NCBI RefSeq assembly: GCF_024345795.1
Contig: NZ_JAGQBU010000015.1
Span: 1 to 62,975, forward strand
Direction: 5' to 3'
DNA length: 62,975 nucleotides
Source of the DNA: Synechococcus sp. J7-Johnson
GTDB lineage: Bacteria > Cyanobacteriota > Cyanobacteriia > PCC-6307 > Cyanobiaceae
Shown: in pieces, positions 7,945 through 44,863 of the stretch
How the letters are laid out: each line of letters starts with the position of its first letter
Position numbering within the stretch: the first letter of the stretch is position 1
Program-made: the position numbers and the translations under genes
Notes under the pieces: model-generated
Database searches by the model: none
The model's input: only the letters and a program-made list of their open reading frames with translations
Told to the model about the DNA's origin: nothing

Positions 7945-7993
7945 GCACAGGCGGGGATGGACGCGCAGAGTGTGAGTGTTGGGAGTAGCGACC

Positions 7994-9073
7994 ATGCCTG
8001 TGAGTCACACCCTGTCCGGTGGTCTGTTCTCACGCGCGAACCGGCTGTGGCTCCCTGGATCGGTTCTCGGTGTGGCGGTGCTGGCCTCCGCTTTCGCTCC
8101 GATCACGGTCAGCGCCCAGTCTGCGGCTGGAGTGGTCCGGATCAGTGGATCAAGCACGGTGTTCCCGATCACATCGGAGGCGATCAAGGCATTCCGCAAG
8201 ACAGCTCCCGGCCGAAACGTCCGCTTCGAGCTCAAGGAAACGGGCACGTCGGCCGGATTCCGTGACTTCTGCGCCGGCAAGGTGCCGATCGCCAATGCTT
8301 CACGGCCGATCAACACCAGGGAGCTCAAGGCCTGCGAGGCGAAGGGGGTCAAGTTCATCGAGCTGCCGATTGCTTTCGACGCCCTGACAGTGGCTGTCCA
8401 CCCGAAGAACACCTGGGCCAAGCAGATCACTGTCAAGGAACTGAACACCCTGTGGAACCGCCAGGCCACTGGACGGGTGAAGCGTTGGAAGCAGGTGAAC
8501 AGCGCCTGGCCCGACCGCCCGATCAAGCTGTGCGGAGCTGGTTCGGATTCCGGCACCTTCGACTATTTCAACAAGGCGATCACCGGCGATGCCGAAAACA
8601 GCCGCAGCGACTACATCGCCAGCGAAGACGATAATGTGTTGGTCAGATGCGTGGCCAATGATCCCAACGCACTGGGCTACTTCGGTTTTGGCTACTATCT
8701 CGCCAATCAGAACAAGCTCAGGTCCCTCGCCATAATCGGACCCAAGGGAGCAACCAGGCCTTCAGTCGAGGCTGTTCAGAAAGAGCGCTACGCGCCCCTC
8801 TCCAGGCCGCTCTTCATCTATATCAACAATGCCAACATGCTTTCCCGTCCGGAGGTGCAGAAGTTCGTCACGTTCTTCGTTCGGAGGGGCCCCCAGATTG
8901 TCAGGGCCGCAGACTTCATTCCCCTTCCCGACTCCACCTACCTCCTGGTGGAAAGCAAGCTGTACCGCCACGTGCTCGGCACCTCCTTCGGTGGAGACCT
9001 GCCGATCGGACTAACCATCGGCCAGGCCCTTGCCCGCAGCTTCGACCAGCTCAAGCAGCCCCGGTCCCGCTGA
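7994..9073 (+). CDS. pstS: phosphate-binding protein of the PstS/SphX type
   Basis: A 359-residue periplasmic substrate-binding protein. The N-terminus is a signal peptide with cleavage expected after ITVSAQS. The mature part begins with VVRISGSSTVFPIT, the typical PstS phosphate-loop start, and goes on with GTSAGFRDFCAG, IANASRPI and a GSDSGTFDYF loop, all phosphate-contacting regions of the family. I chose the ATG at 7994 because GGGAG lies 8 bp upstream; a GTG at 7976 is less likely. The Pho-box array upstream predicts induction by phosphate limitation. No pstCAB genes follow, so this is an isolated copy that may serve a transporter encoded elsewhere or act in sensing, as proposed for SphX. 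Confidence 0.85.
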   Translation: MPVSHTLSGGLFSRANRLWLPGSVLGVAVLASAFAPITVSAQSAAGVVRISGSSTVFPITSEAIKAFRKTAPGRNVRFELKETGTSAGFRDFCAGKVPIANASRPINTRELKACEAKGVKFIELPIAFDALTVAVHPKNTWAKQITVKELNTLWNRQATGRVKRWKQVNSAWPDRPIKLCGAGSDSGTFDYFNKAITGDAENSRSDYIASEDDNVLVRCVANDPNALGYFGFGYYLANQNKLRSLAIIGPKGATRPSVEAVQKERYAPLSRPLFIYINNANMLSRPEVQKFVTFFVRRGPQIVRAADFIPLPDSTYLLVESKLYRHVLGTSFGGDLPIGLTIGQALARSFDQLKQPRSR

Positions 9074-9124: not shown

Positions 9125-10054
9125 GTGACGGCCTTCGAGACCAGCGCCAGCACCAGCACCGCGGAGGTCAGCGATCCCGCGATGGTCTGCGGGCTCTACG
9201 CAGCCGATCTGATCCAGCACCAGACACGCCGGCTGGGCAAGCTCCAGTCCGAAGTGCTGGCTGATCACGATCCTGAACCGCTGCATCAGCTCCGGGTGAG
9301 TCTGCGCAGGCTGCGCACGGCCCTCAGCCAGTTCGCGCCCGCTCTGCGGATGCCGGATGGGGTGAGCGATCGCCGCATCGCCAGGGTGGCCCGGCGCACC
9401 AGCCTCTGCCGTGATCTCGACGTGCTCAGGGATCGCCTGGAGGGGCAGTTGCTGCCCCCCCTGCCGGAGCAGGAACGCAAGGCGATGAAGCCGGTGCTGA
9501 AGCGGCTGTCACGCAACCGGCGGCTGGCCTTCGAAGACCTCGCGGAGGCGCTCACCGGCGGGCCCTATCTCAAGTTGCTCGCCCGTCTGCGCGCCTGGCA
9601 GCTGAAGCCTCGCTTCTCTCCGCTGGGAGATCTGCCCCTGGGGCCCTGGCTGTTCGAATGGCAGTCGCAGGCCTCCAGCGGCCTGTTCCTGCATGGCGGC
9701 TGGTTCGCCGCCGATCCGCACGATCCGGCCCTCCACGATCTGCGCAAGCGCATCAAGGGATTGCGCTATGCCCTCGAACATCTGGAGCCTTTCGCGGCGC
9801 CGGCGCTGGGCGAGTGGATCGCTCTTCTGAAAAAGGCCCAGGACTGCCTGGGGGATCTTCACGATCTCCAGGTGCTCGCAGCGATCCTGGGTGATCAGCT
9901 CGAGAATGGTGTGGCTGAAACCCTGCCGGTGTTGCAGGCCGGCATCCTTGCCCAGCAGGCTGAGCGCTGGAGCAAATGGAGCGACCAGGCGATCCAGCTT
10001 CGTGACCAGGCCAATCGTCACAGGCTCTACAGCAGCCTGATCCCGTCTGCCTGA
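9125..10054 (+). CDS. CHAD domain protein
   Basis: 309 residues of alpha-helical CHAD sequence with the conserved basic motifs LHQLRVSLRRLRTAL (about residues 54-68) and LHDLRKRIKGLRYALEHLEP in the second half. CHAD domains bind inorganic polyphosphate through these Arg/Lys/His helices. It starts with GTG 51 bp after pstS on the same strand, so it probably belongs to the same phosphate-related unit. No CYTH triphosphatase domain is attached. The exact role in polyphosphate granules or storage is unknown. Confidence 0.85.
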   Translation: MTAFETSASTSTAEVSDPAMVCGLYAADLIQHQTRRLGKLQSEVLADHDPEPLHQLRVSLRRLRTALSQFAPALRMPDGVSDRRIARVARRTSLCRDLDVLRDRLEGQLLPPLPEQERKAMKPVLKRLSRNRRLAFEDLAEALTGGPYLKLLARLRAWQLKPRFSPLGDLPLGPWLFEWQSQASSGLFLHGGWFAADPHDPALHDLRKRIKGLRYALEHLEPFAAPALGEWIALLKKAQDCLGDLHDLQVLAAILGDQLENGVAETLPVLQAGILAQQAERWSKWSDQAIQLRDQANRHRLYSSLIPSA

Positions 10055-10151: not shown

Positions 10152-12251
10152 ATGACCGGCCCACCCCCCACTCCGTCCTGCTGCCACGCCGATGGTCTGG
10201 CCCCCACGCCCGACCCGGAGCGGGAGCTGGCCCATGAACTCACCCTGCTGCGCCGCAAGCTCTCGCTGGCGGCTGTGCTCACGGCGCTGGTGGTGCTCGC
10301 GAGCATGCCCCACATGCTCGGTCTCCATTCCCTGCCGTTCCTGCCCGGCTGGTTCACCAGCCCCTGGACCCAGCTGCTGCTTTCCACCCCGGTGCTGTTC
10401 TGGTGCGGCCGGGAGTTCTTCACCGGCGCCGCCTCGGCCTTCCGTCAGCACAGCGCCGACATGAACACCCTGGTGGCCGCCGGCACCGGCATCGCCTGGC
10501 TCACGTCCCTGGTGGCCACCGTCGCGCCGCGGCTGCTCACCGAGGAAGGTCTGCCCGCAGACGTCTACTACGAAGTGACTGTGGTGATCCTCACCCTGGT
10601 GCTGCTGGGCCGCCTGCTGGAGGCCCGCGCCCGCGGCCAGACATCAGAGGCGATCCGCCGCTTGCTGCGCCTGCAGCCGCCCACGGCCCGGGTGCTGCGC
10701 GATGGCGCCCTCCAGGAGATCCCGGTGGAGCTGGTGGTGGTGGGCGATCTGCTGCAGGTGCGCCCCGGCGAGAAGCTGCCCCTCGACGGGGTGGTGGTGG
10801 AGGGCAGCTCCTGGGTGGAGGAATCGATGCTCACCGGTGAGCCGACCCCTGTGGAGAAGGGTCCCGGTGATGCGGTGATCGGGGCGTCGCTCAACCGCAG
10901 CGGCAGCTTCAGCTTTCGCGTCAGCCACGTGGGCACCGACACCGTGCTCGCCCAGATCGTCGAGCTGGTGCGCCAGGCCCAGAGCTCCCGCACGCGGGTG
11001 CAGCGCCTGGCCGATCAGGTGGTGGGCTGGTTCGTGCCGGTGGTGATCGCCCTGGCCATCGCCGCCTTCGTGGGCTGGTTCCTGGTGAGCGGCAACCCGG
11101 TGCTGGCGATGCTGTTCCTGGTCAGCGTGCTGGTGATTGCCTGTCCCTGCGCCCTGGGGCTGGCCACACCCACCTCGATCATGGTGGCCTCGGGCAAGGG
11201 GGCGGAGAACGGACTGATCTTCCGCAGCGCCGAGGCTCTGGAAACCGCCGGCGGCCTGCGCACCATCGTGCTCGACAAGACCGGCACCCTCACCCGCGGC
11301 CAGCCGGAGGTGACCGATTTCGAGCGGCTGGGCGGCAGCCAGCTGACGGCGGCGGCCCTGCTGCGGATGATCGCGGCCCTGGAGGAGCGCTCGGAGCATC
11401 CGCTGGCTGAGGCCATCGTGGGTTACATCCGCCCCCAGCTCCAGGATCCGCGCCTTCCGGCCGTGGAGGCGTTCGAGGCGGTGGCGGGCTTCGGCGTCAG
11501 GGGCCGCGCCGATGGTCGTGACGTGGTGGTGGGCACCCCCCGCTGGCTGGCGGAGCTTGGTTTCGGCATGGAGGCGCTGGAGCCCCTGGCCAGCCGGTTG
11601 GAGGGCGCGGCCCGCAGCGTGGCGGCGGTGGCGGTGGATGGGCGGATCGAGGCCTGCTTCGGCATCGCCGATCCGATCAAGCCGGGAGCGGTGCCCGCCG
11701 TGGCCGCTCTGCGGCGCCTGGGCCTGCAGGTGGTGATGCTCAGCGGTGACGCCCGCCGTACTGCCGAGGTGGTGGCCGCCCAGGTGGGCATCGAGCGGGT
11801 GATCGCCGAGGTGCGACCAGCCGATAAGGCCGATGTGATCCTTCGGCTGCAGGAGCGGGGCGAGGGTCCGGTGGCGATGGTGGGCGATGGCATCAACGAC
11901 GCTCCGGCCCTGGCGGCGGCCGATGTGGGCCTGGCGATGGGCACCGGCACCGATGTGGCGATCGCGGCCAGCGACATCACCCTGATCTCCGGCAACCTGG
12001 CCGGGGTGCCGGCGGCGATCGAGCTCAGCCGCCACACCATGGCCAACATCCGCCAGAACCTGGTCTTCGCCTTCGCCTACAACGTGGCGGGTCTGCCCAT
12101 TGCCGCCGGACTGCTGTTCCCTTTCACCGGCTGGCTGCTGAGTCCGATGATCGCCGGCGCGGCCATGGCCTTCAGCTCCGTGTCCGTGGTGAGCAATGCC
12201 CTGCGGTTGCGTCGCTTCAAGCCCACCCCCCTTCCCGTTGCCGCCAGCTGA
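10152..12251 (+). CDS. copA: copper-translocating P1B-type ATPase
   Basis: 699 residues. It carries the CPC ion-binding motif (331-333), the TGE actuator loop (228-230), the DKTGT phosphorylation site (375-379), the SEHPL nucleotide-binding motif and the GDGINDAP hinge. The last membrane helices hold YN and [11 protein letters not shown], the signature of Cu(I) pumps. Unlike most CopA proteins it has no N-terminal CxxC metal-binding domain; only a CCH triplet near residues 10-12 could bind metal. It should export Cu(I) across the plasma or thylakoid membrane using ATP. It sits behind a CueR-like promoter and its stop overlaps the start of a cupredoxin gene. Confidence 0.9.
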
Positions 12252-31020: not shown

Positions 31021-31101
31021 GAGCTGTGTCGGATGGCACGGGTGAGAAAACGTACCTTGGCCTGTCTGTCTAAGTTTCGGGCAACCCTCCGCCCCGGCTC
31101 G

Positions 31102-33456
31102 ATGCCGCTCAACGAATACCGGCCCGGCTCCGCCTTCCCCGGTGTGATCGGCCGCACGGCCGACGTGTCGACCCCGGCCTGGCCCGAGCCCAACCGGGCC
31201 CGGGAAGGGGCGCCGAACGTGCTCTACATCGTTCTGGACGACACGGGTTACGGGCAGCTCGGCTGCTACGGCAGTCCGATCGCCACCCCGAACCTGGATG
31301 CCCTGGCGGCCGATGGGTTGCGCTATAGCAACATGCACACCACGGCGCTGTGCTCGCCGTCGCGCTCCTGCATGCTCACGGGGCGCAACCATCATTCCAA
31401 CGGGCTGGCCTGCATCACGGAAGGCTCGATGGGCTACCCCGGCTCCAACGGATACATCCCCTTCGAGAACGGCTTCCTCTCTGAAATCCTGCTGCAGAAG
31501 GGTTACAACACCTACGCAGTCGGCAAGTGGCACCTCACGCCTGCGGAAGCCACCTCCGCGGCCGGACCCTACGACCGCTGGCCCCTGGGCCGAGGCTTCG
31601 AGCGCTTCTATGGCTTCCTTGGTGGCGACACGCACCAGTACTACCCGGAACTGGTGCGCGACAACACCCAGGTGGAGCCGGAGACAACTCCAGAGCAGGG
31701 CTATCACCTCACGCCGGATCTGGTGGAGAAGGCGAAAGCGATGATCGCCGATGCCAAGCAGGTGGCACCGAACAAGCCCTTCTTCATGTACTTCTGCGCC
31801 GGCGCCATGCATGCGCCCCACCATGTGCCGAAGGAGTGGGCCGACAAGTACAAGTGCCAGTTCGACGACGGCTGGGACGCCTATCGCCAGAAGACGTTCG
31901 CCCGCCAGAAGGAGCTGGGCATCATTCCCGCCAACACCGTGCTGTCACATCACGATCCCGACGTGCAGGACTGGAACTCGCTCTCGGCCGATGAGCGCCG
32001 GTTGTATGCGCGCATGATGGAGGTGTTCGCCGGCTTCCTGGAGCACACCGACCACTACATCGGTGAGTTGATCCAGTTCCTCAAGGATCTGGGTGAATAC
32101 GAGAACACCCTGATCATGGTGATCTCCGACAACGGCGCCAGCTCCGAGGGCGGACCCACGGGATCCGTAAACGAGGGCAAGTTCTTCAACAACGTTCCCG
32201 AAAATCTGGAGCAGAATCTGGCGGCCATCGATGACATCGGCGGGCCGAAATATTTCAACCATTACCCCTGGGGCTGGACCCACGCCGGCAACACCCCGTT
32301 CCGGCGCTGGAAGCGCGAAACCTACCGGGGCGGCACCAGCGATCCCTTCATCGTGAGCTGGCCGAAAGGTATCAACGCCAAGGGGGAGATCCGCAGCCAG
32401 TACGCCCATGCCATCGACATGGTGCCCACCGTGCTCGATGCGCTCGGCATCGAGGCTCCAGCCACGATTCGCGGGGTGACCCAGAGCCCGATCGAGGGCT
32501 TCAGCCTAGCCTCCTCCTTCGACGAGGCCGCTGCGCCGAGCAGGCACATCACCCAGTACTTCGAGATGTTCGGCCATCGCTCGCTCTATCACGATGGCTG
32601 GCGGGCCGTATGTCCCTGGCCCGGTACATCCTTCAGCGAATCGGGCCGCCGCTTCGGCGATCCGATCTCCTACGACCAGCTGATTCAGCTCGATGCTCAC
32701 GGCTGGGAGCTCTTCAATCTCAAAGATGATTTCGCCGAGACCAACGACCTTGCCGCCAGCGAGCGCGATCGCCTGATCGCCATGATCGGCATGTGGTACG
32801 TGGAGGCGGGCAAGTACAACGTGCTTCCGATCGACAGCCGCGGCACCCAGCGGTTCGGTGTGGAGCGTCCTCAGATCGCCCCCGATCGCCAGCACTACAT
32901 CTATTATCCCGGCACCCAGGTGGTGCCCACGAACGCCGCCCCCAGGGTGATGAATCGCCCCCACTCGATCTCGGTGGAGGCCGTGGTGCCCGAAGGCGGA
33001 GCCGATGGGGTGTTGTTCAGCATGGGCGGCAACGACGGTGGCTTCGCGTTCTACGTACAGAACGGCATCCTCACCTACGGCTACAACTACGTGGCCGACA
33101 GCCACTTCCGCATCACCTCCACGGCGTCGATTCCCAGCGGCCATCACATCTTCAGCATGGAGTTCACCCCCACCGGTCCGGCGGATATCGCCAACGGCAA
33201 GGGCACTCCTGCGGACATCAAGTTGTTCGTGGACGGCCAGCCGGTGGGTGAGGGCCATCTCCCGGTCACCATTCCCCTCAGCCTTGGCCTGGCGGCTGGT
33301 GCCGCCGTGGGCGCCGATCCCGGCTCGCCCACCATGCCCGATTACAAGCCACCCTTCGCGTTTGCCGGCACGGTGAAGCGGGCGCTAGTGGATGTGACCG
33401 GCACATCGGTGGAATCGCTGGAAGAGAAGATGCGCATGATCCTGGCGCGCCATTAA
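31102..33456 (+). CDS. type I sulfatase (arylsulfatase family)
   Basis: About 784 residues. VLYIVLDDTGYGQLGCYGSP supplies metal-binding Asp residues; Cys84 in CSPSRSCMLTGRNHH is the C-x-P-S-R formylglycine site. GKWHLTP, HAPHHVP and VISDNGASSEGG are further active-site regions. About 200 C-terminal residues after 560 look like a beta-sandwich (FYVQNGILTYGYNYVA, IKLFVDGQPVGEG). I see no secretion signal. I chose MPLNEYRPGS as start; ATG 31033 is possible. It hydrolyses sulfate esters, or phosphonate/phosphate esters in related enzymes. A formylglycine-generating enzyme must be encoded elsewhere. Confidence 0.85.
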   Translation: MPLNEYRPGSAFPGVIGRTADVSTPAWPEPNRAREGAPNVLYIVLDDTGYGQLGCYGSPIATPNLDALAADGLRYSNMHTTALCSPSRSCMLTGRNHHSNGLACITEGSMGYPGSNGYIPFENGFLSEILLQKGYNTYAVGKWHLTPAEATSAAGPYDRWPLGRGFERFYGFLGGDTHQYYPELVRDNTQVEPETTPEQGYHLTPDLVEKAKAMIADAKQVAPNKPFFMYFCAGAMHAPHHVPKEWADKYKCQFDDGWDAYRQKTFARQKELGIIPANTVLSHHDPDVQDWNSLSADERRLYARMMEVFAGFLEHTDHYIGELIQFLKDLGEYENTLIMVISDNGASSEGGPTGSVNEGKFFNNVPENLEQNLAAIDDIGGPKYFNHYPWGWTHAGNTPFRRWKRETYRGGTSDPFIVSWPKGINAKGEIRSQYAHAIDMVPTVLDALGIEAPATIRGVTQSPIEGFSLASSFDEAAAPSRHITQYFEMFGHRSLYHDGWRAVCPWPGTSFSESGRRFGDPISYDQLIQLDAHGWELFNLKDDFAETNDLAASERDRLIAMIGMWYVEAGKYNVLPIDSRGTQRFGVERPQIAPDRQHYIYYPGTQVVPTNAAPRVMNRPHSISVEAVVPEGGADGVLFSMGGNDGGFAFYVQNGILTYGYNYVADSHFRITSTASIPSGHHIFSMEFTPTGPADIANGKGTPADIKLFVDGQPVGEGHLPVTIPLSLGLAAGAAVGADPGSPTMPDYKPPFAFAGTVKRALVDVTGTSVESLEEKMRMILARH

Positions 33457-33545
33457 TGGCTCTTCGCACAAGCGTCGGTTGCGCAAGTTGAATCAAGCCG
33501 GCACATTCTTCGTTCTTTGCTCTATCCCCACCAGGAATCCCAACC

Positions 33546-35921
33546 ATGGCAGCAGCTGACTCCGTGCAACGCCAGATGCTGCCGATCCCCGATCAGTCCT
33601 ATGGCGGCCTGATCACCTACGACGCCAGAGATCCGGATACCACCTATCCACCGATCCGGGATCTGCGGCCGCCGGCGGGAGCACCCAATGTGCTGGTCAT
33701 CCTGCTGGATGATGTGGGGTTCGGGGCCTCCAGTGCCTTCGGCGGACCCTGCCACACCCCGAACATCGAGAAGCTGGCTGCCGGTGGGCTCAAGTACAAC
33801 CGCTTCCACACCACTGCCCTCTGCTCACCGACACGGCAGGCCCTGCTCACCGGCCGCAACCACCATTCGGTGGGGATGGGCGGCATCACCGAGATCGCCA
33901 CGGCCGCGCCCGGCTACAACTCGATCCTGCCGAACACCTGCGCTCCCCTGGCGCGCACCCTGAAGCTCAACGGCTACTCCACCGCGCAGTTCGGCAAGTG
34001 CCATGAGGTGCCCGTCTGGCAGACAAGCCCGATGGGCCCCTTCGATGCCTGGCCCACGGGCGGCGGTGGCTTCGAATACTTCTACGGCTTCATCGGGGGC
34101 GAAACCAACCAGTGGTATCCGGCGCTCTACGAAGGCACAACGCCGGTGGAACCGAAGAAGACACCCGAGCAGGGCTATCACCTCAGCGAGGATCTGACCA
34201 TCAAGGCGATCCAATGGATCCGCCAGCAGAAGGCGCTGATGGCCGACAAGCCCTTCTTCACCTATTTCGCGCCTGGGGCCACCCATGCTCCGCACCATGT
34301 GCCGAAGGACTGGGCGAACAAGTACAAGGGCCAGTTCGACCAGGGTTGGGACAAGTTGAGAGAGGAAATCTTCGCCCGTCAGAAGCAGCTGGGGGTCATT
34401 CCTGCCGACTGTCAGCTCACCGAGCGCCATGGGGATATTCCCGCCTGGGACACGATCACGGCCGAAATGAAGCCGATTCTGGCCCGCCAGATGGAGGTTT
34501 ATGCGGGCTTCCTGGAGCACACCGATCATCACATCGGACGCTTGATCGATGCACTTCAGGAGCTGGAGATTCTCGAAGACACGCTGATTTACGTGATCAT
34601 CGGCGACAACGGCGCCTCAGCGGAGGGCTCTCTGCAGGGCTGCTTCAACGAGATGGCCCCGCTCACGGGCTTTGCCCACCTCGAAACCGCCGAGTTCCTC
34701 GCCGAGCGGTTGGACCTGCTGGGTGGAGTCGAGGCCTATAACCACTACGCGGTGGGCTGGGCCCACGCCATGAACACGCCCTACCAGTGGACGAAGCAGG
34801 TTGCCTCCCACTTCGGCGGCACCCGCAACGGCACCATCGTCCACTGGCCCAGGGGAATCCAGGCCAGGGGAGAAATCCGCAGCCAGTTCCATCATGTGAT
34901 CGATGTGGCCCCCACCATCCTGGAAGCGGCGGGTCTGCCCCAGCCCACCTTTGTCAATGGAGTGCAGCAGCGTCCAATCGAGGGGGTGAGCATGGCCTAT
35001 TCCTTCAACGATCCACAGGCGGCCGAACGGCGCCAGACCCAGTACTTCGAGATGGCGGGCAACCGCGGCATCTACCACAAGGGCTGGACGGCGGTGACCC
35101 GGCACCGCACCCCATGGGTGACCGGCCAGGTGCAACTGGCCGCTTTTGACGACGATGTCTGGGAGCTCTATGACACCAGCACCGACTGGACCCAGGCGCA
35201 TGATCTGGCAAGGGAACATCCCCAGAAGCTCCATGAATTGCAGCGGCTGTGGCTGATCGAAGCCACCCGATACAACGTGCTACCGCTTGATGATCGCTTC
35301 GCCGAGCGTGCCAATCCCGAGATCGCCGGCCGGCCGCAGCTGATCAAGGGAACACGGCAATTGCTGTTCGGCGGCATGGGGCGGCTGAGCGAAAGCTCGA
35401 TCGTCAACTTCAAGAACAAGTCGCACGCGATCACCGCCGAGGTGGTCGTGCCCGAAGCCGGTGCCGAGGGCGTCATCATCGCCCAGGGTGGTCTCACCGG
35501 TGGCTGGAGCCTCTATGCCAGAGAGAGCAAGCCGAAGTACTGCTACAACTTCTATGGCGTGAACCGCTACACGATTGCGGGCACAGCGGCGATTCCACCT
35601 GGAACTCACCAGGTGCGGATGGAGTTCGCCTATGACGGTGGCGGCCTGGCGAAAGGCGGCACGGTGTCGCTCTATGTGGATGGGCAGAAGGTCGGGGAAG
35701 GCCGGGTGGAGCAGACCGAACCGATGGTCTTCTCAGCCGACGAGACCTGCGACGTCGGTTTCGAAGCCGGTTCGCCGGTGACCGATGACTATCCGAGCGT
35801 CGGCGGCGCGTTCAGCGGTGAGGTGAACTGGGTGGAGATTGCCGTCGACAAGGACGCCGAGGATCTCGATCATCTGATCAGCCCGGAGGAAAGGCTGTGC
35901 TTAGCCATGGCTCTGCAGTAG
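33546..35921 (+). CDS. second type I sulfatase, paralogue of the preceding gene
   Basis: 791 residues with the same layout as its neighbour: VLVILLDDVGFGASSAFGG, CSPTRQALLTGRNHH with the formylglycine Cys at residue 93, HAPHHVP, and VIIGDNGASAEGS, then a C-terminal beta-rich part (VSLYVDGQKVGEGRV). An AGGA lies 9 bp before the ATG. The GKCHEVP stretch replaces the GKWH of its paralogue at the metal site, which may change specificity. No signal peptide is seen. The tandem pair probably arose by duplication. It ends in TAG and overlaps the next gene. Confidence 0.85.
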   Translation: MAAADSVQRQMLPIPDQSYGGLITYDARDPDTTYPPIRDLRPPAGAPNVLVILLDDVGFGASSAFGGPCHTPNIEKLAAGGLKYNRFHTTALCSPTRQALLTGRNHHSVGMGGITEIATAAPGYNSILPNTCAPLARTLKLNGYSTAQFGKCHEVPVWQTSPMGPFDAWPTGGGGFEYFYGFIGGETNQWYPALYEGTTPVEPKKTPEQGYHLSEDLTIKAIQWIRQQKALMADKPFFTYFAPGATHAPHHVPKDWANKYKGQFDQGWDKLREEIFARQKQLGVIPADCQLTERHGDIPAWDTITAEMKPILARQMEVYAGFLEHTDHHIGRLIDALQELEILEDTLIYVIIGDNGASAEGSLQGCFNEMAPLTGFAHLETAEFLAERLDLLGGVEAYNHYAVGWAHAMNTPYQWTKQVASHFGGTRNGTIVHWPRGIQARGEIRSQFHHVIDVAPTILEAAGLPQPTFVNGVQQRPIEGVSMAYSFNDPQAAERRQTQYFEMAGNRGIYHKGWTAVTRHRTPWVTGQVQLAAFDDDVWELYDTSTDWTQAHDLAREHPQKLHELQRLWLIEATRYNVLPLDDRFAERANPEIAGRPQLIKGTRQLLFGGMGRLSESSIVNFKNKSHAITAEVVVPEAGAEGVIIAQGGLTGGWSLYARESKPKYCYNFYGVNRYTIAGTAAIPPGTHQVRMEFAYDGGGLAKGGTVSLYVDGQKVGEGRVEQTEPMVFSADETCDVGFEAGSPVTDDYPSVGGAFSGEVNWVEIAVDKDAEDLDHLISPEERLCLAMALQ

Positions 35922-36595
35922 ATGGCGTGATCCAGAGCAAGTCCGTCAAATCCCTGCGCATCGAACTGCGCTGGTCCGCCGTTCTCGCCGTGGTCGTCCT
36001 CTGGGCGCTGGAGAGGGGGCTGCCGAACCGGTTCCGGCTCCTTCCTGCCGGCTTCGACTTCATCCTCTTCGGGACGGTTCTGATTCCGATGCTGGTTGTC
36101 GGGCTGACGGCCGGCAGCAGGAGGTGGTTGCGCATCGAGCGTGTCACCACCTGGCTCTTCGTTGCGGTCACCGGCAGCATCACGCTGGCGAATCTTGTCG
36201 TTCTGATTCAGGAGATGCTGTTCGGCCGAGGACAGCTCAATGCCATTGAACTGCTTGCCTCCGGCATGGCGATCTGGGTCTCCAACGTGGTCACGTTTTC
36301 CCTGGCGTTCTGGCATGTCGATCGCAGCGGCCCCGAGGCGAGGCTCAATCGTCTGCCTGTCCGGGCGGACTGGTTCTTCCCCCAGGAGGGGGTGCCCGAT
36401 GCCGTGAGCCCTGACTGGCGCCCCACGTTCATTGATTACCTGTTCCTGGGCTTTTCGACGGCAACGGCCTTCAGCCCCACCGGGGCCATCCCGCTCAGCG
36501 CGCGGGCCATGCTGCTGATGATGCTCGAAAGCTCCATCTCCCTGTTGACCATCGCCGTGATCGCGGCCAGGGCCATCAACATCCTCGGCACGTGA
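35897..36595 (+). CDS. integral membrane protein of unknown function
   Basis: 232 residues with about six hydrophobic segments. The last part, [20 protein letters not shown] followed by [20 protein letters not shown], resembles the pore-region layout of some two-helix channel-like proteins, but I cannot assign a family. The GTG start at 35897 has a strong GGAGG 7 bp upstream and lies 25 bp inside the sulfatase gene, so it is translationally coupled to it and probably supports its function. Confidence 0.7.
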
Positions 36596-36617
36596 GCCCA
36601 GGGCCACGAAGATCGAT

Positions 36618-36719
36618 CCCGACGCGCCGGGTGAGCCCTTCTCGGTGGTGATCCCGCCGCCGAATGTGACCGGCAGCCTGCACATGGGCCACGGCTTCGA
36701 GACGGCCCTGATCGACACG
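36618..36719 (+). pseudogene. 102-bp copy of part of valS
   Basis: This segment matches 42137-42238 inside valS with five base differences over 102 bp. It encodes the same peptide, from DAPGEPF through the HMGH signature to ETALIDT. All five differences are synonymous (a TCG/AGC Ser codon accounts for three). It is not part of a complete gene here. It probably marks a recombination or insertion event. Confidence 0.8.
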
Positions 36720-36771
36720 CCCGCGACCGCGAGGCCCTTGATCACAATGGGTCCACTCCGCCACCCTTCCG

Positions 36772-37263
36772 ATGGCTTCCGCCGCGGACTTCGATGCCCC
36801 CCTTCAGAAGCAGGGTCTGCCCCCCGCCTACCGCTACGAGGCCGCCGTGCACCAGGCTCAGGAGGCACTGCCGGGCAGCCTCGACGCCGTGGAGGCCTTT
36901 CGCTGCGGCCTGCCTGCCCTGTTCGAGCCCTGCCGGGTCGATGCAAACCGCGACGGATTTGCCGCCATGGTGACCTCCCAGCCCGAGAGCTTCGGTTTGA
37001 CGGCCGGCGCCTCAGCCGAACAGGTGCGTGCTGTGATCGTGCGCGGGCTGGCCGCTGATTCCGATCTGGCCTTCCAGCTGCTGCCTGCCGGCGAGGAACC
37101 GCAGGCGGCCGACGGCGCGCTCCTCTTTCCACCGGAACAGGGCGAAACGGTGGCCGAGCACTGGATCTGGTGTGTGCATGCCCCTGCCTTCTTCCCCGGC
37201 CCCGCCTGGCTGTTGGTGCCCCGTCACGGGACTGAGCCTCCGTATGCCTACGGCTACCTGTGA
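36772..37263 (+). CDS. hypothetical protein
   Basis: 163 residues without signal peptide or membrane segment. [20 protein letters not shown] and the closing [20 protein letters not shown] show normal protein composition and codon use. No family recognised. It lies just after the valS fragment. The 196 bp behind it hold no gene, only a (TGG)5 run at 37425-37439. Confidence 0.6.
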
Positions 37264-37459
37264 TGGATCGTCGTCGTCTCCCCTGAGGGCCAGGGAAGGA
37301 TCAGCTGCGTCCTGACCTGCGAGGACACTCCCGCGAAACGGAGCCCTTGCGCACGGTGGGCTCAGCTTTTCAAGCTACGGATCAGTGCTGACGTGACCCC
37401 CACCAGCGTCCCCATGAACTGGGTTGGTGGTGGTGGTGGTCTTCAGGGCAGGGAGAGGA

Positions 37460-38200
37460 TCAGTTGCAGTCGCTCTTCTTGGTGTACGTGATGGCCTGAT
37501 AGCGGCCGTCGGTGGTGCGAATCGACACGCAGTTGCCCGTTTTGGGTTGCTGCCAGTAGGTGAAGGAACTGTCGGCCAATTTGGTGCCGCCGCGATAGGT
37601 GTAGCCCTTGGAGGTGAGGGTCCCTTCGGCCTGCCCCCCCTTGGCTCCTACCAGGGATTGCAGGTCGGAGACGGGAGCGCCTTCCCGAGCAGGCTCGGTT
37701 CTGGCGACAGGCTTGCCACTGATCAAAGCGCCGATCAGAGCGCCGATTCCAGCCCCGACCAGCTCACTGGAGTTGGCTTTCTGGGGCTGATCATCAAAGC
37801 GGGCATCGGGATTCTCGGCGCGGTCGAGACGCACGGAGAGCCTGCGCGCGGTGCCATCAGTCCAGCTGAAGACATCATGATCAGGCTGTTCCTTGTGCTG
37901 GACGCTGCGGATTCCAGAGTAGGTCTGCACACTCAGCGCCTGCACATTGGGGCCCGAGAAAATATATTCTGTGCCATCATCCAGCTTCACAACGTAAGCA
38001 TCGACGCCGCCGGACTGTTTGTGCTTGAAGCCGCAATGTCCGTTGAAGGCTTCAGAGTTACCATCCATCAGCTTGCAACGGCCTTGCGCCCTGACCAGGA
38101 CTTCGGCCATGGCCGCCGGGGCGAAGGGGGCGGACAGCCCTGCCAGGAGGAGGCCCGCGCCGCCGAGGGCGATGGATCTGCGACGAATCGAGGAAATCAT
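37460..38200 (-). CDS. exported hypothetical protein with glycine-zipper segment
   Basis: 246 residues. A Sec signal peptide (RRRSIALGGAGLLLAGLSAP, cleavage after AMA) starts it. The mature part has paired Cys residues (GRCKLMDG and NGHCGFKH), a glycine-zipper-like GAGIGALIGALISG in the middle and a C-terminal domain with two more Cys. It is likely periplasmic or outer-membrane associated. Function unknown. Confidence 0.7.
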   Translation of the reverse strand: MISSIRRRSIALGGAGLLLAGLSAPFAPAAMAEVLVRAQGRCKLMDGNSEAFNGHCGFKHKQSGGVDAYVVKLDDGTEYIFSGPNVQALSVQTYSGIRSVQHKEQPDHDVFSWTDGTARRLSVRLDRAENPDARFDDQPQKANSSELVGAGIGALIGALISGKPVARTEPAREGAPVSDLQSLVGAKGGQAEGTLTSKGYTYRGGTKLADSSFTYWQQPKTGNCVSIRTTDGRYQAITYTKKSDCN

Positions 38201-38335
38201 GGCTGGTTAGGTGTGTTGCCGGCAGTCCCGATTGGAGCAGGGATGCTGAACGGGAGATTAATCTGCACCTCGATGCATCCGTTATCCTGAAATGGTGGTC
38301 ACTCCAGCCTCCGTCATCGCCGCAGGTTGGTTCAT

Positions 38336-38638
38336 TCAGTCAATCGTCGCTCTGGAGGCCAACAGGGGTCTGATCAGGCCAACCAAGGTCACCGGAGCCA
38401 GCAGTGGCCAGATCAGCAACAGGTCGAGGCGGATGTTGGCTTCTGGTGTCCGAACCAGCACCAACTACTCCCACGCCGCATAGATGATCCAGCTCGAAGC
38501 GGCCAGAAGGAGTGGGCGGGTGCGCCGGCGACTGGCACCTCCCCACCTGCGTAGCACTCCATAGTTCAATAGAAAAAATAGAGCCACCACAAGGATGTGG
38601 AGTGGTTGTGCGATAAAGATCTCGGCCAGCCATTGCAT
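38336..38638 (-). pseudogene. small membrane protein interrupted by an in-frame TAG
   Basis: The frame starts with MQWLAEIFIAQPLHILVVAL and reads FFLLNYGVLRRW, then LLLAASSWIIYAAWE, where TAG at 38465-38467 interrupts it; it resumes without frameshift as LVLVRTPEANIRLDLLLIWP and ends at TGA 38336-38338. The two halves together look like one ~100-residue protein with three membrane segments, with the charged RTPEANIRLD stretch typical of a conserved small membrane family. A Trp (TGG) to TAG change would explain the break. It follows the META-domain gene by 6 bp. Confidence 0.7.
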
Positions 38639-38644
38639 CGTTGA

Positions 38645-39613
38645 TCAGCGACTCGGCAGCAGTGGAAGGCCATCAGCAAAACCGGGATCACCGACAAGAA
38701 TCGGCGTCCCTGCCGGCGTCGGCTCGGCCGGAACACGCTCCTGTTCTACGTAGCGCTGGCCGTCAAATGTGTGGCGCAGGTAGGTGGTGGGGGCCCCGCC
38801 ACCGGACTCCCGTTTCCAGAGATCTTGCCAGCCGCGTGTGCGCTGAGCTGAAACGATGATGGGGAGGCGCGTGATCGCCCAGCTGTCGATCAAGTGATAC
38901 TCGATGCCGCTCTGTCGAAAGATCTGCAGGGTGCATCCCCCGGTTCCGCAGAAGGCTGGGCCCATCAGATACACGAACACCTCCTCGCTGCCATCGCCAT
39001 TGAGGTCGTACCGGGCATGGACGTAGCGGGTGCGGCTTGCTCCCTGCTCCCCAGCGTTCCCCTGGCCCATGACATCAGGCGAGGCCCTCATGATGGCGGC
39101 CTCCAGCTTGGGATCAGGGCTGGCTGAGAACTGGCCTGCGGGCTGTACGGGCTCCCAGACGAGCAGCCCCCCATCAGCCAGCAAGCTGAGCGTCAGCCGG
39201 CCATCGTTCAGCCGATAGCCACGCACGAAGGCAGCCTGGGCGCCAAGCTTTTCGCCCAGGCTTGGAGGCGGGCAGAGGGCCCTGGTGGTGGCCAGTGGGC
39301 CCAGCCGCAGACTGCCGCTGCTGGGGTCGGCGCTGGGTTGGGCCGACCAGCCGCCGTTGGCCCGGTTGCAGTCGAGCCGCAGCTGCACCGTGCCGTCGCC
39401 GTTGAACTGAAGCGTGTACCGGGATGGATCGGCCGGCCGGGTGGTGCCCTGAGCATCGTCCATCGACTGCATCTCAACCAGGCGCCACTGGGTGCCTGCC
39501 AGGGGGGCGGCGGTGGCCGGTTTGGCCTGACTCCTGCCCGCCGCGCCAGGCAGAAGGGTGGCCGCCGTGACGGTGACAGCGGCCAAAACCAACGCGAGTG
39601 CTTTTCGGGCCAT
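38645..39613 (-). CDS. exported META domain protein
   Basis: About 322 residues beginning MARKALALVLAAVTVTAATL, a signal peptide. Residues ~40-155 form a META/HslJ-like domain (GTQWRLVEMQS, YTLQFNGDGTVQLRLDCNRANGG). The C-terminal half contains YDLNGDGSEEVFVYLMGP, a calcium-loop-like stretch, and CGTGGCTLQIF. It is likely periplasmic, perhaps related to stress or envelope function. An upstream ATG at 39646 is also possible. Confidence 0.75.
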   Translation of the reverse strand: MARKALALVLAAVTVTAATLLPGAAGRSQAKPATAAPLAGTQWRLVEMQSMDDAQGTTRPADPSRYTLQFNGDGTVQLRLDCNRANGGWSAQPSADPSSGSLRLGPLATTRALCPPPSLGEKLGAQAAFVRGYRLNDGRLTLSLLADGGLLVWEPVQPAGQFSASPDPKLEAAIMRASPDVMGQGNAGEQGASRTRYVHARYDLNGDGSEEVFVYLMGPAFCGTGGCTLQIFRQSGIEYHLIDSWAITRLPIIVSAQRTRGWQDLWKRESGGGAPTTYLRHTFDGQRYVEQERVPAEPTPAGTPILVGDPGFADGLPLLPSR

Positions 39614-39663
39614 GTTGAACACTGGACGACCAGGTATCTCCACCATTGCAGCCCTGCAGGACC

Positions 39664-40029
39664 TCAGGGCGCTGCGACGCGAAGCACGTTGCCATCGGTC
39701 CCCTGCTCCACCAGCTGGAAGGAGCTGTTGCCGGAGAGCAGCCAGGTGCGTCCCTGGACGTCGCGGTAGGGGCGCCCCTTGCTGGTGGCAGCGCTGCTGG
39801 GCGTGAACACCCAGAAGGGCCGATCCCCGGAGGAGAAGTCGATCCTCAGCACCTCGCTGCCTTCCGCCTTGGTGATCACGCAAGTCTGCTGAACGGTGTT
39901 GAGCCTGCAGGGACGCTGGCTGATCCGCAGGCGACCGAAGTCTGAGGCATTGAAGCGGGCCGGCTGTGGGGCGGCCGCCACAGGGGAGGCCAGCAGCAGG
40001 GCGACCAGGGTGAGCATGGATCGGATCAT
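39664..40029 (-). CDS. small exported hypothetical protein
   Basis: 121 residues from MIRSMLTLVALLLASPVAAA, a signal peptide. The mature part contains two Cys (RPCRLN, QTCVIT) that may form a disulfide, and a beta-rich pattern (GRTWLLSGNSSFQLVE). It lies 50 bp upstream of the META-domain gene on the same strand. Function unknown. Confidence 0.65.
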   Translation of the reverse strand: MIRSMLTLVALLLASPVAAAPQPARFNASDFGRLRISQRPCRLNTVQQTCVITKAEGSEVLRIDFSSGDRPFWVFTPSSAATSKGRPYRDVQGRTWLLSGNSSFQLVEQGTDGNVLRVAAP

Positions 40030-40086
40030 GGCGACGGCAGGAAAGCTTGATTCGCTTCCATCCTCCATACAGACGAAGCAGGGGGC

Positions 40087-40542
40087 TCAGCCCTTCAAGA
40101 GGCGGCTGTAGGTCGGGACCCGTCGCTGTATCCAGGCCGCCATCGACCAGAGACCCAGGGAACTCGCCGCTCCCAGGGCCCCCATCACGCCGAATCCGAT
40201 CACTCGATCGAGCAGCGATGGCGTCACACTCGGTTCACCGCCCCCCACAACCAACAGGAACAGCCAGAGGGCGAGACCGGCGAGGCAGCCTTCAAGCCCC
40301 GCCGCGGAAGCCTGTCCGCCGCCTGAGACGCGTCGAGCGCCAAGGTGGTGCTTCAGCCTGAGATGGGCTAGTCCCGAGAGCACAGCGAGCGCCACCACGA
40401 GCCAGACAAAACGGAGCGGTGGTGGCCGGTCGGCTCCTGCCAGCGCCACAGAGGTGCTGAGCAGGAACAGCCCACCCGCGCAGATCGCTGCAATTCGCGC
40501 TTCTCCTCGTTCCCTTCTCCCTCGAGCCTCGATGCTCCCCAT
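40087..40542 (-). CDS. hypothetical membrane protein
   Basis: 151 residues with about four hydrophobic segments (IAAICAGGLFLLSTSVALAG, VWLVVALAVLSGLAHL, ALWLFLLVVGG, GFGVMGALGAASSLGLW). No family recognised. It belongs to a run of minus-strand envelope-type genes. Confidence 0.55.
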   Translation of the reverse strand: MGSIEARGRRERGEARIAAICAGGLFLLSTSVALAGADRPPPLRFVWLVVALAVLSGLAHLRLKHHLGARRVSGGGQASAAGLEGCLAGLALWLFLLVVGGGEPSVTPSLLDRVIGFGVMGALGAASSLGLWSMAAWIQRRVPTYSRLLKG

Positions 40543-40580
40543 CCCGACATCCCTCCGGAATCGCCAGCCCAGCGTTCAGC

Positions 40581-41015
40581 ATGACCAACCACGTCATGGT
40601 TGAGCAGGGGAGCCTGCCGCCACGAACCAGCACCCGGCCAGCACGGCTCACCGTGTTGCTGTGCGGCGTCTCGGCCTTGCTCACCCTCACGCTCGCCCTC
40701 ACCAGCGCTCCCCGCTGGCGAAGCAGCGATGGAGCGTTCCTGCTGCTGGCGCTGACGCCCTATCTGGGTGTTGGGGTACTGGCGATCATGCTGCTGCGCT
40801 CGCGGCGATGGGCCTGGAGCCTGTTCGGCCTCGCCGTGGCGCTGTCCCTGGCAGGCGTCGGGTGTTTCGCGCTGGACAGCTGGTCCTTCCACACCGTGGC
40901 CGAGTACCGGATGGTGCAGCGCTTCACCGTGATCGTGGTGCCGTTGCTGCACCTGGTGATCGTCGCCCCCTTCGCGCTGGTCGTCCTGCTCAGGGGGGCA
41001 GAGCATGGTCGTTGA
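40581..41015 (+). CDS. hypothetical membrane protein
   Basis: 144 residues with four predicted membrane helices (LTVLLCGVSALLTLTLAL, AFLLLALTPYLGVGVLAIML, AWSLFGLAVALSLAGVG, VIVVPLLHLVIVAPFAL). Divergent from the preceding membrane gene by 38 bp. Function unknown. Confidence 0.6.
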   Translation: MTNHVMVEQGSLPPRTSTRPARLTVLLCGVSALLTLTLALTSAPRWRSSDGAFLLLALTPYLGVGVLAIMLLRSRRWAWSLFGLAVALSLAGVGCFALDSWSFHTVAEYRMVQRFTVIVVPLLHLVIVAPFALVVLLRGAEHGR

Positions 41016-41102
41016 TGGAACCCATCAGAGTGGTGGCTACGGTCCCTGACAGAGAGGAAGGGGTCGTCCCGTTCCCTCTCGCCATCCCCTCGCTCGACGC
41101 CC

Positions 41103-41318
41103 ATGAGCCTCGAAGACCAGATGAAGGCCACAGCCAAGGACGCCGAGGGCAAGCTCCAGGCCGCTGCTGGTGAACTCACCGGTGATCAGGGCTTGAAGGC
41201 GGAAGGCGAGGCCAAGCAGCTCCAGGCCAAGGTGATGGGTGCCACCGGCGACCTCAAGGACAAGGCCCAGGATGTGGCCCAGGCGATCGGTGAGGCCCTG
41301 GGCGGGAAGGGGGGCTGA
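41103..41318 (+). CDS. CsbD family protein
   Basis: 71 residues, fully helical and charged: EDQMKATAKDAEGKLQAAAG, ELTGDQGLKAEGEAKQLQ, KDKAQDVAQAIGEAL. This is the CsbD pattern, a general-stress-induced small protein in many bacteria. Biochemical role unknown. Confidence 0.9.
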   Translation: MSLEDQMKATAKDAEGKLQAAAGELTGDQGLKAEGEAKQLQAKVMGATGDLKDKAQDVAQAIGEALGGKGG

Positions 41319-41337
41319 GCTTTTCCGGAGCCGGGGG

Positions 41338-41973
41338 GTGGCACTGGTGCCGCCGCTGAAGGTCTTGCTCGCGCTGCTGGCGGCTGGGTGGTGGGGTTGC
41401 TGCCAAGCTCTCGGCGCCGTTCCGCCGCCGCCGGAACAGGGCACCGCGAACTGCTCCAATCCCACCTACGCCAGTGACCAGCTGGTGTGTGCTGATCCGG
41501 ATCTGCTGGCCCTCGATCGCCGGATGGTTGTGCTCCTGGCTGAAGCCAGCCCGGCGGGCCCCGGTTCGCCGCTGCACTGGTTCGAACCGCAGCCCGACTG
41601 GTTCCGCAGGAGAAGCCTCTGCGCCTTCTCCGAACGGCATGCCGCCTGCCTGATAGCCGCCTACAGTGAGCGGATCGACCTCCTTGCCGCCCTGGCAGGG
41701 CGGGCTTCCGGCCAGACGCGCCCGGCCTTCCTGGCAACCTGCCCGGGCGCCCCCTGGGGCAACGGGCCGGTGCGCCTTCACCAGCCTGATCCGTCGCCAC
41801 TCAGCATCCAGGATGGCCGGGGCAGGTTGCTGGTTTTGGCCAGCGCCCTCCAGCCTCAGGACGACTGGTCCCCGTTCGTTCGCATCGGCAATGACGCCAG
41901 GGGGATCCGGCTTGAGCCCCCTGGGGGCAGCGTCGTTCGCTGCCGGGCGCTTCCCGTTCGCCTCAACCCTTGA
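41338..41973 (+). CDS. exported LprI-like domain protein
   Basis: About 211 residues from a GTG ([20 protein letters not shown]), a signal-peptide-like start. The segment [20 protein letters not shown] is typical of the LprI/DUF1311-like domain of lysozyme-inhibitor-related proteins, with further Cys at [15 protein letters not shown]. It is probably periplasmic. It lies 19 bp after the CsbD gene. Confidence 0.6.
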
Positions 41974-42043
41974 GCCGGAACTGAGATCGCCCCTGCACCG
42001 CCCTTTGAGACCATGGGGTCGACCTGCCTCCGCCCTGCCCGCC

Positions 42044-44863
42044 GTGACTGAGGCCCTGCCCAAGACCTACGACCCGGCCGGCACCGAGGCCCGCTGGCAG
42101 GCGGCCTGGGAGGCAGCGGGTGCCTTCCACCCCGAACCCGACGCGCCGGGTGAGCCCTTCAGCGTGGTGATCCCGCCTCCGAACGTGACCGGCAGCCTGC
42201 ACATGGGCCACGGCTTCGAGACGGCCCTGATCGACACGATCGTGCGCTTCCAGCGGCTGCAGGGCAAGAACGTGCTCTGCCTGCCCGGCACCGACCACGC
42301 TTCGATCGCGGTGCAGACGATCCTGGAGAAGCAGATCCAGGCCGAGGGCGGCAGCAAAGACGATCTCGGCCGCGACGCCTTCCTTGAGCGCGCCTGGGCC
42401 TGGAAGGCAGGCAGCGGCGGCACGATCGTGGGCCAGCTGCGGCGGCTGGGCTACTCGGTGGATTGGCGCCGTGAGCGCTTCACGCTCGATCCCGGCCTCA
42501 ACAAAGCCGTGGTGGAGGCCTTCGTGCGCCTGCACGAGCAGGGGCTGATCTACCGGGGCGAATACCTGGTGAACTGGTGTCCGGCTTCGGGATCGGCGGT
42601 GAGCGATCTGGAAGTGGAGATGAAGGAGCTCGACGGGCACCTCTGGCACTTCCGCTACCCGCTCAGCGGCGGGGCCGGCACCGACGGCACCGACCACCTG
42701 GTGGTGGCCACCACCCGCCCCGAAACTCTGCTGGGTGACACCGGCGTGGCTGTGCACCCAGGCGACAGCCGCTACGCGGCCCTGATTGGCCAAACAATCA
42801 CCCTGCCCCTGGTGGGCCGCCAGATTCCGATCGTGGCCGACGAGCATGTGGATCCGGTCTTCGGCACAGGCTGCGTCAAGGTCACCCCTGCCCACGACCC
42901 CAACGATTTCGCGATCGGTGCCCGCCACGGTCTTCCGCTGATCACGGTGATGGCCAAGGACGGCACGATGAACGCCGCGGCCGGACGCTTCGCCGGACTG
43001 GATCGCTTCGAGGCGCGCACGGCGGTGGTGGCGGCGATGGAAGCGGAGGGGTTCCTGGTGAAGGTGGAGCCCCACCGCCACAGCGTGCCTTTCTCGGATC
43101 GCGGCAAGGTGCCGGTGGAGCCGCTGCTCTCCACCCAGTGGTTTGTGCAGGCCGAGCCGCTGGCAGCCCGCTGCCGCGAAGCGCTCGATCAGGGCGAGCC
43201 CCGCTTCGTGCCGCAGCGCTGGGAGAAGGTCTACCGCGACTGGCTCACTGACATCCGCGACTGGTGCATCAGCCGCCAGCTCTGGTGGGGTCACCGCATC
43301 CCCGCCTGGTTCGTGGTGAGTGAAACGGGCGGGATGATCAGCGAGTCCACCCCCTATGTGGTGGCCCGCGATGCGGCTGAGGCCCAGGCGAAGGCGGAGG
43401 CCCAGTTCGGCGACGCCAGCCGGGCTGCGGGCCGCCAGCTGCAGCTGGAGCAAGACCCCGACGTGCTCGACACCTGGTTCTCCAGCGGCCTCTGGCCCTT
43501 CTCCACCCTGGGCTGGCCCGACGAAACCGCCGCCGATCTGGCTACCTGGTACCCCACCAGCGTGCTGGTGACCGGCTTCGACATCATCTTCTTCTGGGTG
43601 GCGCGGATGACGATGCTTGCCGGTGCCTTCACCGGCCGCATGCCCTTCGCCGACGTGATGATCCACGGCCTGGTGCGGGATGAGAACAACCGCAAGATGA
43701 GCAAGAGTGCCGGCAACGGCATCGATCCGCTGCCGCTGATCGAGCGTTACGGCGCCGACGCCCTGCGCTTCGCCCTGGTGCGCGAAGTGGCCGGCGCCGG
43801 CCAGGACATCCGCCTTGACTACGACCGCGTCAGTGGCAGCTCGGCCACAGTGGAGGCAGCGCGCAACTTCGCCAACAAGCTCTGGAACGCCAGCCGCTTC
43901 GCGCTGATGAACCTGGGCGGTGAAACCCCCGCCAGCCTGGGGGAACCCGATCCGGCAGCGCTCACCCTGGCGGACCGCTGGATCCTGTCGCGGCTGGCAC
44001 GGGTGAACGGCGAAACGGCGGACCGCTACGGCAGCTACGCCCTCGGTGAGGCGGCCAAGGGGCTCTACGAGTTCGCCTGGAACGAAGTGTGCGACTGGAC
44101 GATCGAGCTGCTCAAGCGGCGGCTCAATCCCCGCCCTGCCACCGAGGGGGACCCCATCAGCCCTGAGGCTCTGGCCGACCAGCGCGTGGCCCGCCAGGTG
44201 CTGGCCAAGGTGCTCGCTGAGCTGCTGGTGCTGCTGCATCCGCTGATGCCCCACCTGAGTGAGGAGCTGTGGCACGGTCTCACCGGCGCGCCTGAGGCCA
44301 CCTTCCTGGCCCTGCAGGCCTGGCCGGCGGTGGAAGAGGCCGCCCTGGACGCCCCCCTGGAGGCCCAGTTCGCTGAGCTGATCGAGGCGATTCGGGTGGT
44401 GCGCAACCTGCGGGCCGTGGCAGGCCTCAAGCCGTCACAGGCGGCACCGGTGGTGTTCGTCACCGGCCGCCCGGAGCTGGCGGCCGTGCTGCGGGAGGCC
44501 ACCGGAGACATCACCGCTCTCACCCGTGCCGCCTCGGTGGAGGTGCGCGAGACCAAAGCCACCGGCGCGGACGATGCTGTCGGCAGCACGCCCGTGAGCG
44601 CCCGCTGCCTGGCGGCCGTGAGCGGCGAACTGCAGGTGCTGCTGCCGATCGAGGGCCTGGTCGATCTCGACGCCCTGCGCGGCCGCCTGGAGAAAGACAT
44701 CGCCAAGGCAGAGAAGGAGATCAAGGGCCTGAGCGGCCGCCTGGCCAACCCCAACTTTGCGGGCAAGGCCCCACCGGAGGTGGTGGCCGAATGCCAGGCC
44801 AACCTGGCCGAAGCCGAAGCCCAGGCGACGCTGGCGCGGGGGCGGCTGGAGGGACTGGGCTGA
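42044..44863 (+). CDS. valS: valyl-tRNA synthetase
   Basis: 939 residues. The class I signatures are HMGH (53-56) in [14 protein letters not shown] and KMSKS (551-555) in [12 protein letters not shown]. The editing domain shows [23 protein letters not shown] and the [16 protein letters not shown] zinc/catalytic region. The C-terminal coiled-coil tRNA arm ([20 protein letters not shown]) is complete. It charges tRNA-Val. The start is a GTG at 42044, matching the family N-terminus; the frame is open further upstream through the previous gene region. A partial copy lies at 36618-36719. Confidence 0.97.

Follow-up and report, generated by a model that had tools for sequence, protein, structure and literature searches.

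A 62,975-nucleotide stretch of the genome of Synechococcus sp. J7-Johnson (contig NZ_JAGQBU010000015.1; hereafter the window) contains an intact valS gene, encoding ValRS, and, upstream of it, a 102-bp fragment of valS. The two are separated by a block of accessory genes. We consider it probable, at roughly two chances in three, that the fragment is a scar, i.e., the front-end remnant of an earlier valS that was displaced when incoming DNA brought in the accessory genes along with a complete valS 5' end.

The sequence-only reading described 36618-36719 as a valS fragment with only synonymous changes, and this was confirmed. Over the 102 bp compared there are five base differences within three codons (fragment/valS: TCG/AGC at codon 40, CCG/CCT at codon 45 and AAT/AAC at codon 47), and the 34 encoded residues are the same as those of ValRS. 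In simulations, five random substitutions on 102 bp were all silent in 0.23% of cases, and three in 2.4%. The tool alignment covers 36614-36719 (106 nt, 94% identity, six differences), and its E value of 1.4e-41 excludes a chance match to valS. The sixth difference, at 36617, lies within DNA that matches the 3' flank of mem232, the left neighbour of the fragment, in relatives. The right end of the fragment is sharp (36719/36720), the longest exact run common to fragment and valS is 54 bp, and the block is bracketed by a direct repeat of 102-106 bp, a feature of long target duplication. No signs of a decayed pseudogene (amino-acid changes or stops) were found in the 34 codons. Thus, the fragment is young, or too short to have met an amino-acid change; it is itself probably functionless. 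A search of the genome with the whole of valS, in which 40 of 268 first-look candidates were scored, returned valS, the fragment and one 24-base match on another contig. The closest named relative by ValRS is Synechococcus lacustris (78% protein identity).

We compared 109 genomes at valS (the window's own, G000, and the loci of 108 relatives, which carry the other G-numbers). The sample is non-random, and at least 1 kb of upstream sequence was available in 103 of the 108 relatives' loci and at least 5 kb in 98. The block DNA matches none of the 108 loci, and a fragment plus block common to all relatives was not seen. A match to mem232 occurs upstream of valS in eight of the 108. In the insert-free relatives G334 and G055, mem232 is followed by intact valS after 98 and 143 bp, respectively (G334 has a single valS match; G055 has one, plus a weak match of 72% over 93 bp on another contig). 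The earlier suggestion that the block was inserted next to valS is therefore supported. The corresponding distance is 5.4 kb in the window, 0.8 kb in G090, 1.4 kb in G006 (where the gene is decayed), 1.8 kb in G096, 2.1 kb in G118, 6.5 kb in G005 and 10.9 kb in G002. Thus, this stretch is highly variable even among G000, G002 and G006, which cluster together in the valS tree.

The left joint can be placed closely. BLAST matches to the relatives' flank end at 36596-36617 (the query stopped at 36617), and the CCCG/CCCGA at 36618-36622 is common to the flank and to the start of the valS piece, a microhomology of about 5 bp. The match to the flank stops short of valS by 80 bp in G334 and by 124 bp in G055. 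The left copy is preceded by the mem232 flank and lacks valS codons 1-31, i.e., the outer target sequence was not kept.

We propose that the incoming DNA would have consisted of a gene block joined to a complete valS 5' end, and would have recombined with the resident chromosome. One end may have been exchanged by homology inside valS, which would keep the essential gene whole, and the other may have been joined, in the absence of long homology, at a point within the front of the old gene. The old front part would then be stranded on the far side of the new genes, giving the order stump, new genes, whole gene. In the window, the left side of the stump may later have been deleted, with the mem232 flank joined to codon 32 at the CCCGA microhomology; this would explain the lack of codons 1-31. 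We infer the exchange and its direction from the genomes.

Leftovers of valS are not confined to this strain: in eight of the 109 genomes we identified a piece of the N-terminal half of valS on the same strand, 1-13 kb upstream of the intact gene (a biased rate, as the 108 loci were chosen by rank among the listed valS matches, some owing to second hits). A search with the ValRS protein of the window against 1.12 Mb upstream of valS in the 108 genomes, plus the window's own locus, found relics in six genomes (G000, G004, G261, G303 in two places, G347 and G372); with the reversed protein as a control, three weak hits appeared, none better than E 0.057. A valS search of the genus of G261, together with a self-comparison, brought in G242 (12.9 kb upstream) and G113 (11 kb upstream; first codons and leader). 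Amino-acid changes or stops are present in the relics of G372 (67.6% protein identity, with an internal stop), G261 (75%), G347 (60%) and G004. This looks like a repeated route of gene gain, not a one-off.

The underlying valS surveys list matches in at least 209 of 400 genomes (among the matches listed) and in 128 of 201. Not counted as relics are the double valS genes of G131 and G156 (on separate contigs), weak matches on other contigs of G176, G234, G360 and G351 in the one-genus valS search, and contig-end second matches of G197 and G314 in an mnmG search (see below). Also uncounted is a 59-bp segment of G083 (locus L152), about 2.1 kb upstream of valS, that copies (86%) the region immediately before the gene; it is possibly the scar of an insertion that stopped short of valS.

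If the relics mark the former place of valS, the left flank of a relic should continue into the intact valS of an insert-free relative. In G372 the left flank matches G360 over 618 bp, to valS base +3, in G242 it matches G297 over 620 bp, to base +11, and in G004 it matches G118 and G096 up to -5 (5 bp before valS). The relics of G242 and G372 start at codons 1-5, right after the old flank; that of G004, a single-contig genome, starts only at codon 32. In G113 the match (510 bp, 95%) ends 109 bp before the valS of G083. The old valS position is thus shown directly in three other genomes, and less clearly in four more (G113 and three genomes considered below).

Other features also connect the inserted genes to the front of valS. 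G261, G347 and G372 have one and the same two-gene unit immediately upstream of valS, behind stumps whose left contexts differ; G131, which belongs to another genus, has the unit at this place with no stump before it. Thus, these genes and the valS front appear to travel together, and the three stump-bearing genomes, having the unit in common, may not record three events. Identity between the valS genes of G261 and G347 is 96% over the first 450 columns and 82.5-92.1% beyond them, and the nearest neighbours of the window's own valS change along its length. In G303 (locus L215, contig C16, 8531-10860), two valS relics have an AbrB-like and PIN-like gene pair (assigned by eye) between them, which suggests layered insertions, as repeated events would leave.

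The sequence-only reading further proposed that the fragment came from another functional valS, such as that of a related strain, and asked which strain matches best. By nucleotides, the valS genes of G076 and G216, both of other genera, match the fragment as well as the window's own valS does. Counted by codons, the smallest difference is to the own valS (3 of 34; the next best differs at 5, with 22 valS genes listed of 38 aligned). GAC at codon 33 occurs in the own valS only among the 38, although the joint could have made it, and CCT at codon 45 is private to the own valS in this set. TCG40 and AAT47 are present in the valS of other species, and the sisters G002 and G006 have AGC and AAC. 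A recent copy of the strain's own valS was rejected on the basis of TCG versus AGC at codon 40. The simplest statement would be that the fragment represents another allele from the same or a close lineage, and not a copy of the present valS. The proposal therefore stands as far as another valS is concerned; a foreign strain as its source is unproven, with the own valS closest by codons and tied with two others by nucleotides.

That the fragment is foreign, carried in within the block from another strain, is accordingly a reading that we weighed, and we think it quite improbable. TCG40 and AAT47, which differ from the sisters, and the nucleotide ties with other genera would fit it. However, codons 32-39 match the own valS alone among those compared (with the above reservation on GAC33), and where the position is well testable in other genomes the piece sits at the old valS place. 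Tandem duplication, in which a segment that began somewhere upstream and ended at valS codon 65 was duplicated and the first copy was later mostly lost, is unlikely but accounts well for one genome. Immediately after the relic of G004 comes a 96-bp segment that repeats (89.6%) the 3' end of the sulfatase gene located upstream in the same genome. This arrangement has the look of a tandem junction, and among the 108 loci the segment matched only G004's own sulfatase (in the reversed locus, L096, the sulfatase-end copies are at 11178-11273 and 7971-8066). Moreover, the 109 loci hold 65 dispersed self-repeats, every one of them direct and none inverted; some represent paralogous genes (the two sulfatases, for example). 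In the window's own genome, the DNA to the right of the fragment (36715-37440) occurs once (best other match E 0.012), and TCG at codon 40 is not one substitution away from the AGC that a recent own copy, like the sisters, would carry.

An integrase-borne island with the 5' part of valS as its target, restoring the gene on insertion, would also produce repeated insertion at one essential gene that is kept whole, and recombinase-like genes (by eye) occur in the blocks of G002 and G113. We regard it as very improbable. The right ends of the pieces fall at about codons 10, 31, 65, 75, 86, 101, 113, 126 and 437; this scatter over hundreds of codons provides no fixed attachment core and argues against an att site, although decay may blur some ends. 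No recombinase was found among the nine locus proteins submitted to Pfam, a coverage that leaves out small or missed genes. On these two grounds a site-specific island was rejected. Least probable of all is an assembly artefact or contamination. The assembly is in 68 contigs and shares an exact 54-bp stretch at the two places, but reads from the own valS cannot produce a fragment with five base differences, the single-contig genome G004 has a similar relic, and the contamination estimate is 0.57%.

Several observations weigh against the interpretation of the fragment as a scar of one-sided gene gain. We found no other genome in which this block adjoins valS, and donor searches with exp211 and META322 (300 family genomes each) listed no copy beside valS. 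For most of its length the intact valS clusters with G006 and G002, which belong to its own genus; an import could concern only the 5' end of the gene, and 102 bp are too few for proof. The position test is weak in G261, G347 and G303, in which the match stops 84-90 or 18-19 bp before the relative's valS and ends 8-245 bp before the relic (the match in G303 is 49-50 bp long). The first 450 valS columns are conserved generally (next best 90.8%), so the G261/G347 similarity gives weak support. The ends of the decayed relics are limits of similarity and not proven joints. Tandem duplication fits G004 at least as well. Finally, mobile elements may have contributed in some lineages: transposase- or recombinase-like genes (by eye) occur in the blocks of G002 and G113. 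The first three genes are common to these two blocks (loci L100 and L160), which come after a valS stump in G113 and after mem232, with no stump, in G002; G006 has the leading block genes in part.

Accessory genes accumulate on the upstream side of valS. It is possible, and we put it forward only tentatively, that in these picocyanobacteria this side constitutes an integrase-free accretion spot in which the stumps form a record of layered arrivals that can be ordered. An insertion that cuts the essential valS would survive only if the incoming DNA restores the 5' end, so accessory genes at such a spot would be hitched to the valS 5' end.

The mechanism is probably general, and valS is perhaps a favoured place. 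In one genus (42 genomes), same-contig stumps were identified for valS in five of 41 genomes with a match (G242, G261, G303, G347 and G372), for mnmG in one of 39 (G256) and for ligA in none of 41. By events the contrast is small, as three of the five valS cases have the inserted unit in common. The valS query came from the tested genus and the mnmG and ligA queries from the window, so the controls do not settle a preference. The mnmG stump is a like scar at another core gene: a 75-bp copy of the mnmG start (96%) lies 7.6 kb upstream on the same strand (locus L349, contig C30 of G256, 2201-2275 and 9861-9935). Long internal direct repeats occur between this stump and the intact mnmG.

Features of the locus are listed in Table 1.

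Table 1. Features at the valS locus of the window (predictions of export and membrane location by eye).
Feature	Position	Strand	Remarks
mem232	35897..36595	+	predicted membrane protein; no Pfam family; left neighbour of relic
mem232 3' flank and left joint	36596..36622	+	identical to G118/G096 flank up to CCCG/CCCGA
valS relic	36618..36719	+	102 bp, codons 32-65; 95% identity to own valS, silent differences only
Inserted accessory block and valS leader	36720..42043		5,324 bp; right joint of relic at 36719/36720
orf163	36772..37263	+	protein without Pfam family; G002 homologue 78% amino-acid identity, away from valS
exp246	37460..38200	-	predicted exported; sub-threshold glycine-zipper match
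META322	38645..39613	-	META-domain protein (Pfam)
exp134	39664..40068	-	predicted exported; no Pfam family
mem151	40087..40542	-	predicted membrane; no Pfam family
mem144	40581..41015	+	predicted membrane; no Pfam family
CsbD-like protein	41103..41318	+	Pfam
exp211	41338..41973	+	predicted exported; in 4 of 300 family genomes, own included
Intact valS	42044..44863	+	939 aa, GTG start assumed
Intact valS stretch matching relic	42137..42238	+	sequence alignment

The block is a collection of accessory genes that occur elsewhere in relatives. Pfam was run on nine predicted proteins (the eight of the block and mem232, leaving out a small open reading frame at 38340-38633); two scored above the curated cut-off (META and CsbD), one gave the sub-threshold glycine-zipper match and six had no family. 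None of the block proteins was found upstream of valS in 48 loci, where the sole mem151 hit lies past the 3' end of valS, in G003. Matches to META322 occur in 41 of 300 family genomes (own included), many covering one domain only. G038 groups exp246, META322 and mem144 together. In G002 the homologues of the CsbD-like protein, exp211 and orf163 are adjacent, away from valS, with exp211 followed after about 64 bp by orf163 (locus L319, contig C28, 8179-10306); in the window these genes are at opposite ends of the block. A circular intermediate opened between exp211 and orf163 and joined at valS was considered and not retained, the G002 adjacency being its sole support. Base composition gives no help: G+C is 65.7% in the block and 65.7% in the window (61.9-69.7% in 5.3-kb windows).

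Upstream of mem232 are two tandem sulfatase-like genes (31033-35921), 67% alike in DNA over 881 bp. Such genes are part of the valS upstream neighbourhood in several genera.

If it is a scar, the fragment shows a way in which genes that encode no mobility functions may enter these genomes. One-sided gene gain could be tested for computationally, in a simple manner, by looking for stumps of core genes beside a variable region. Should there be a true preference for valS, the restored essential gene would represent the selection that keeps the joint.

The literature searches listed no report of valS stumps in cyanobacteria, as judged by titles and the openings of abstracts in a library that lacks most subscription papers. 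Insertion with long target duplication in Helicobacter pylori is reportedly the subject of work by Nobusato and colleagues from 2000. Two papers on H. pylori describe insertions flanked by long direct repeats (PMC1643837, PMC4978471). As in the window, a block lies between long direct repeats of neighbouring sequence, and insert-free relatives are known. Unlike the window, the H. pylori insertions are often tied to restriction-modification genes, whereas here the duplication is limited to a 5' stretch of one gene, and in this genome the left copy is without the valS codons that come before it. Replacement flexible genomic islands resemble the valS locus in that differing gene clusters occupy the same place in related aquatic prokaryotes; these islands are stated to lack clear boundary hallmarks (PMC4033161), whereas a boundary scar is visible here.

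The parallel in Escherichia coli concerns the joints themselves. In conjugation experiments, PCR indicated for 56 of 60 clones that part of the homologous gene had been duplicated; in 14 clones that were sequenced, 109 to 950 bp were duplicated by single-crossover insertion (PMC3240628). As proposed for valS, homology-facilitated illegitimate recombination there joins one end by homology and the other without it, and the sizes are of the same order as the relics. In the cyanobacteria, unlike in E. coli, the exchange is read from genomes, an essential gene that stays intact is involved, and decay has affected most relics. Partial gene duplication on insertion is thus an already known kind of event, of which the valS fragment would be a further, natural case.
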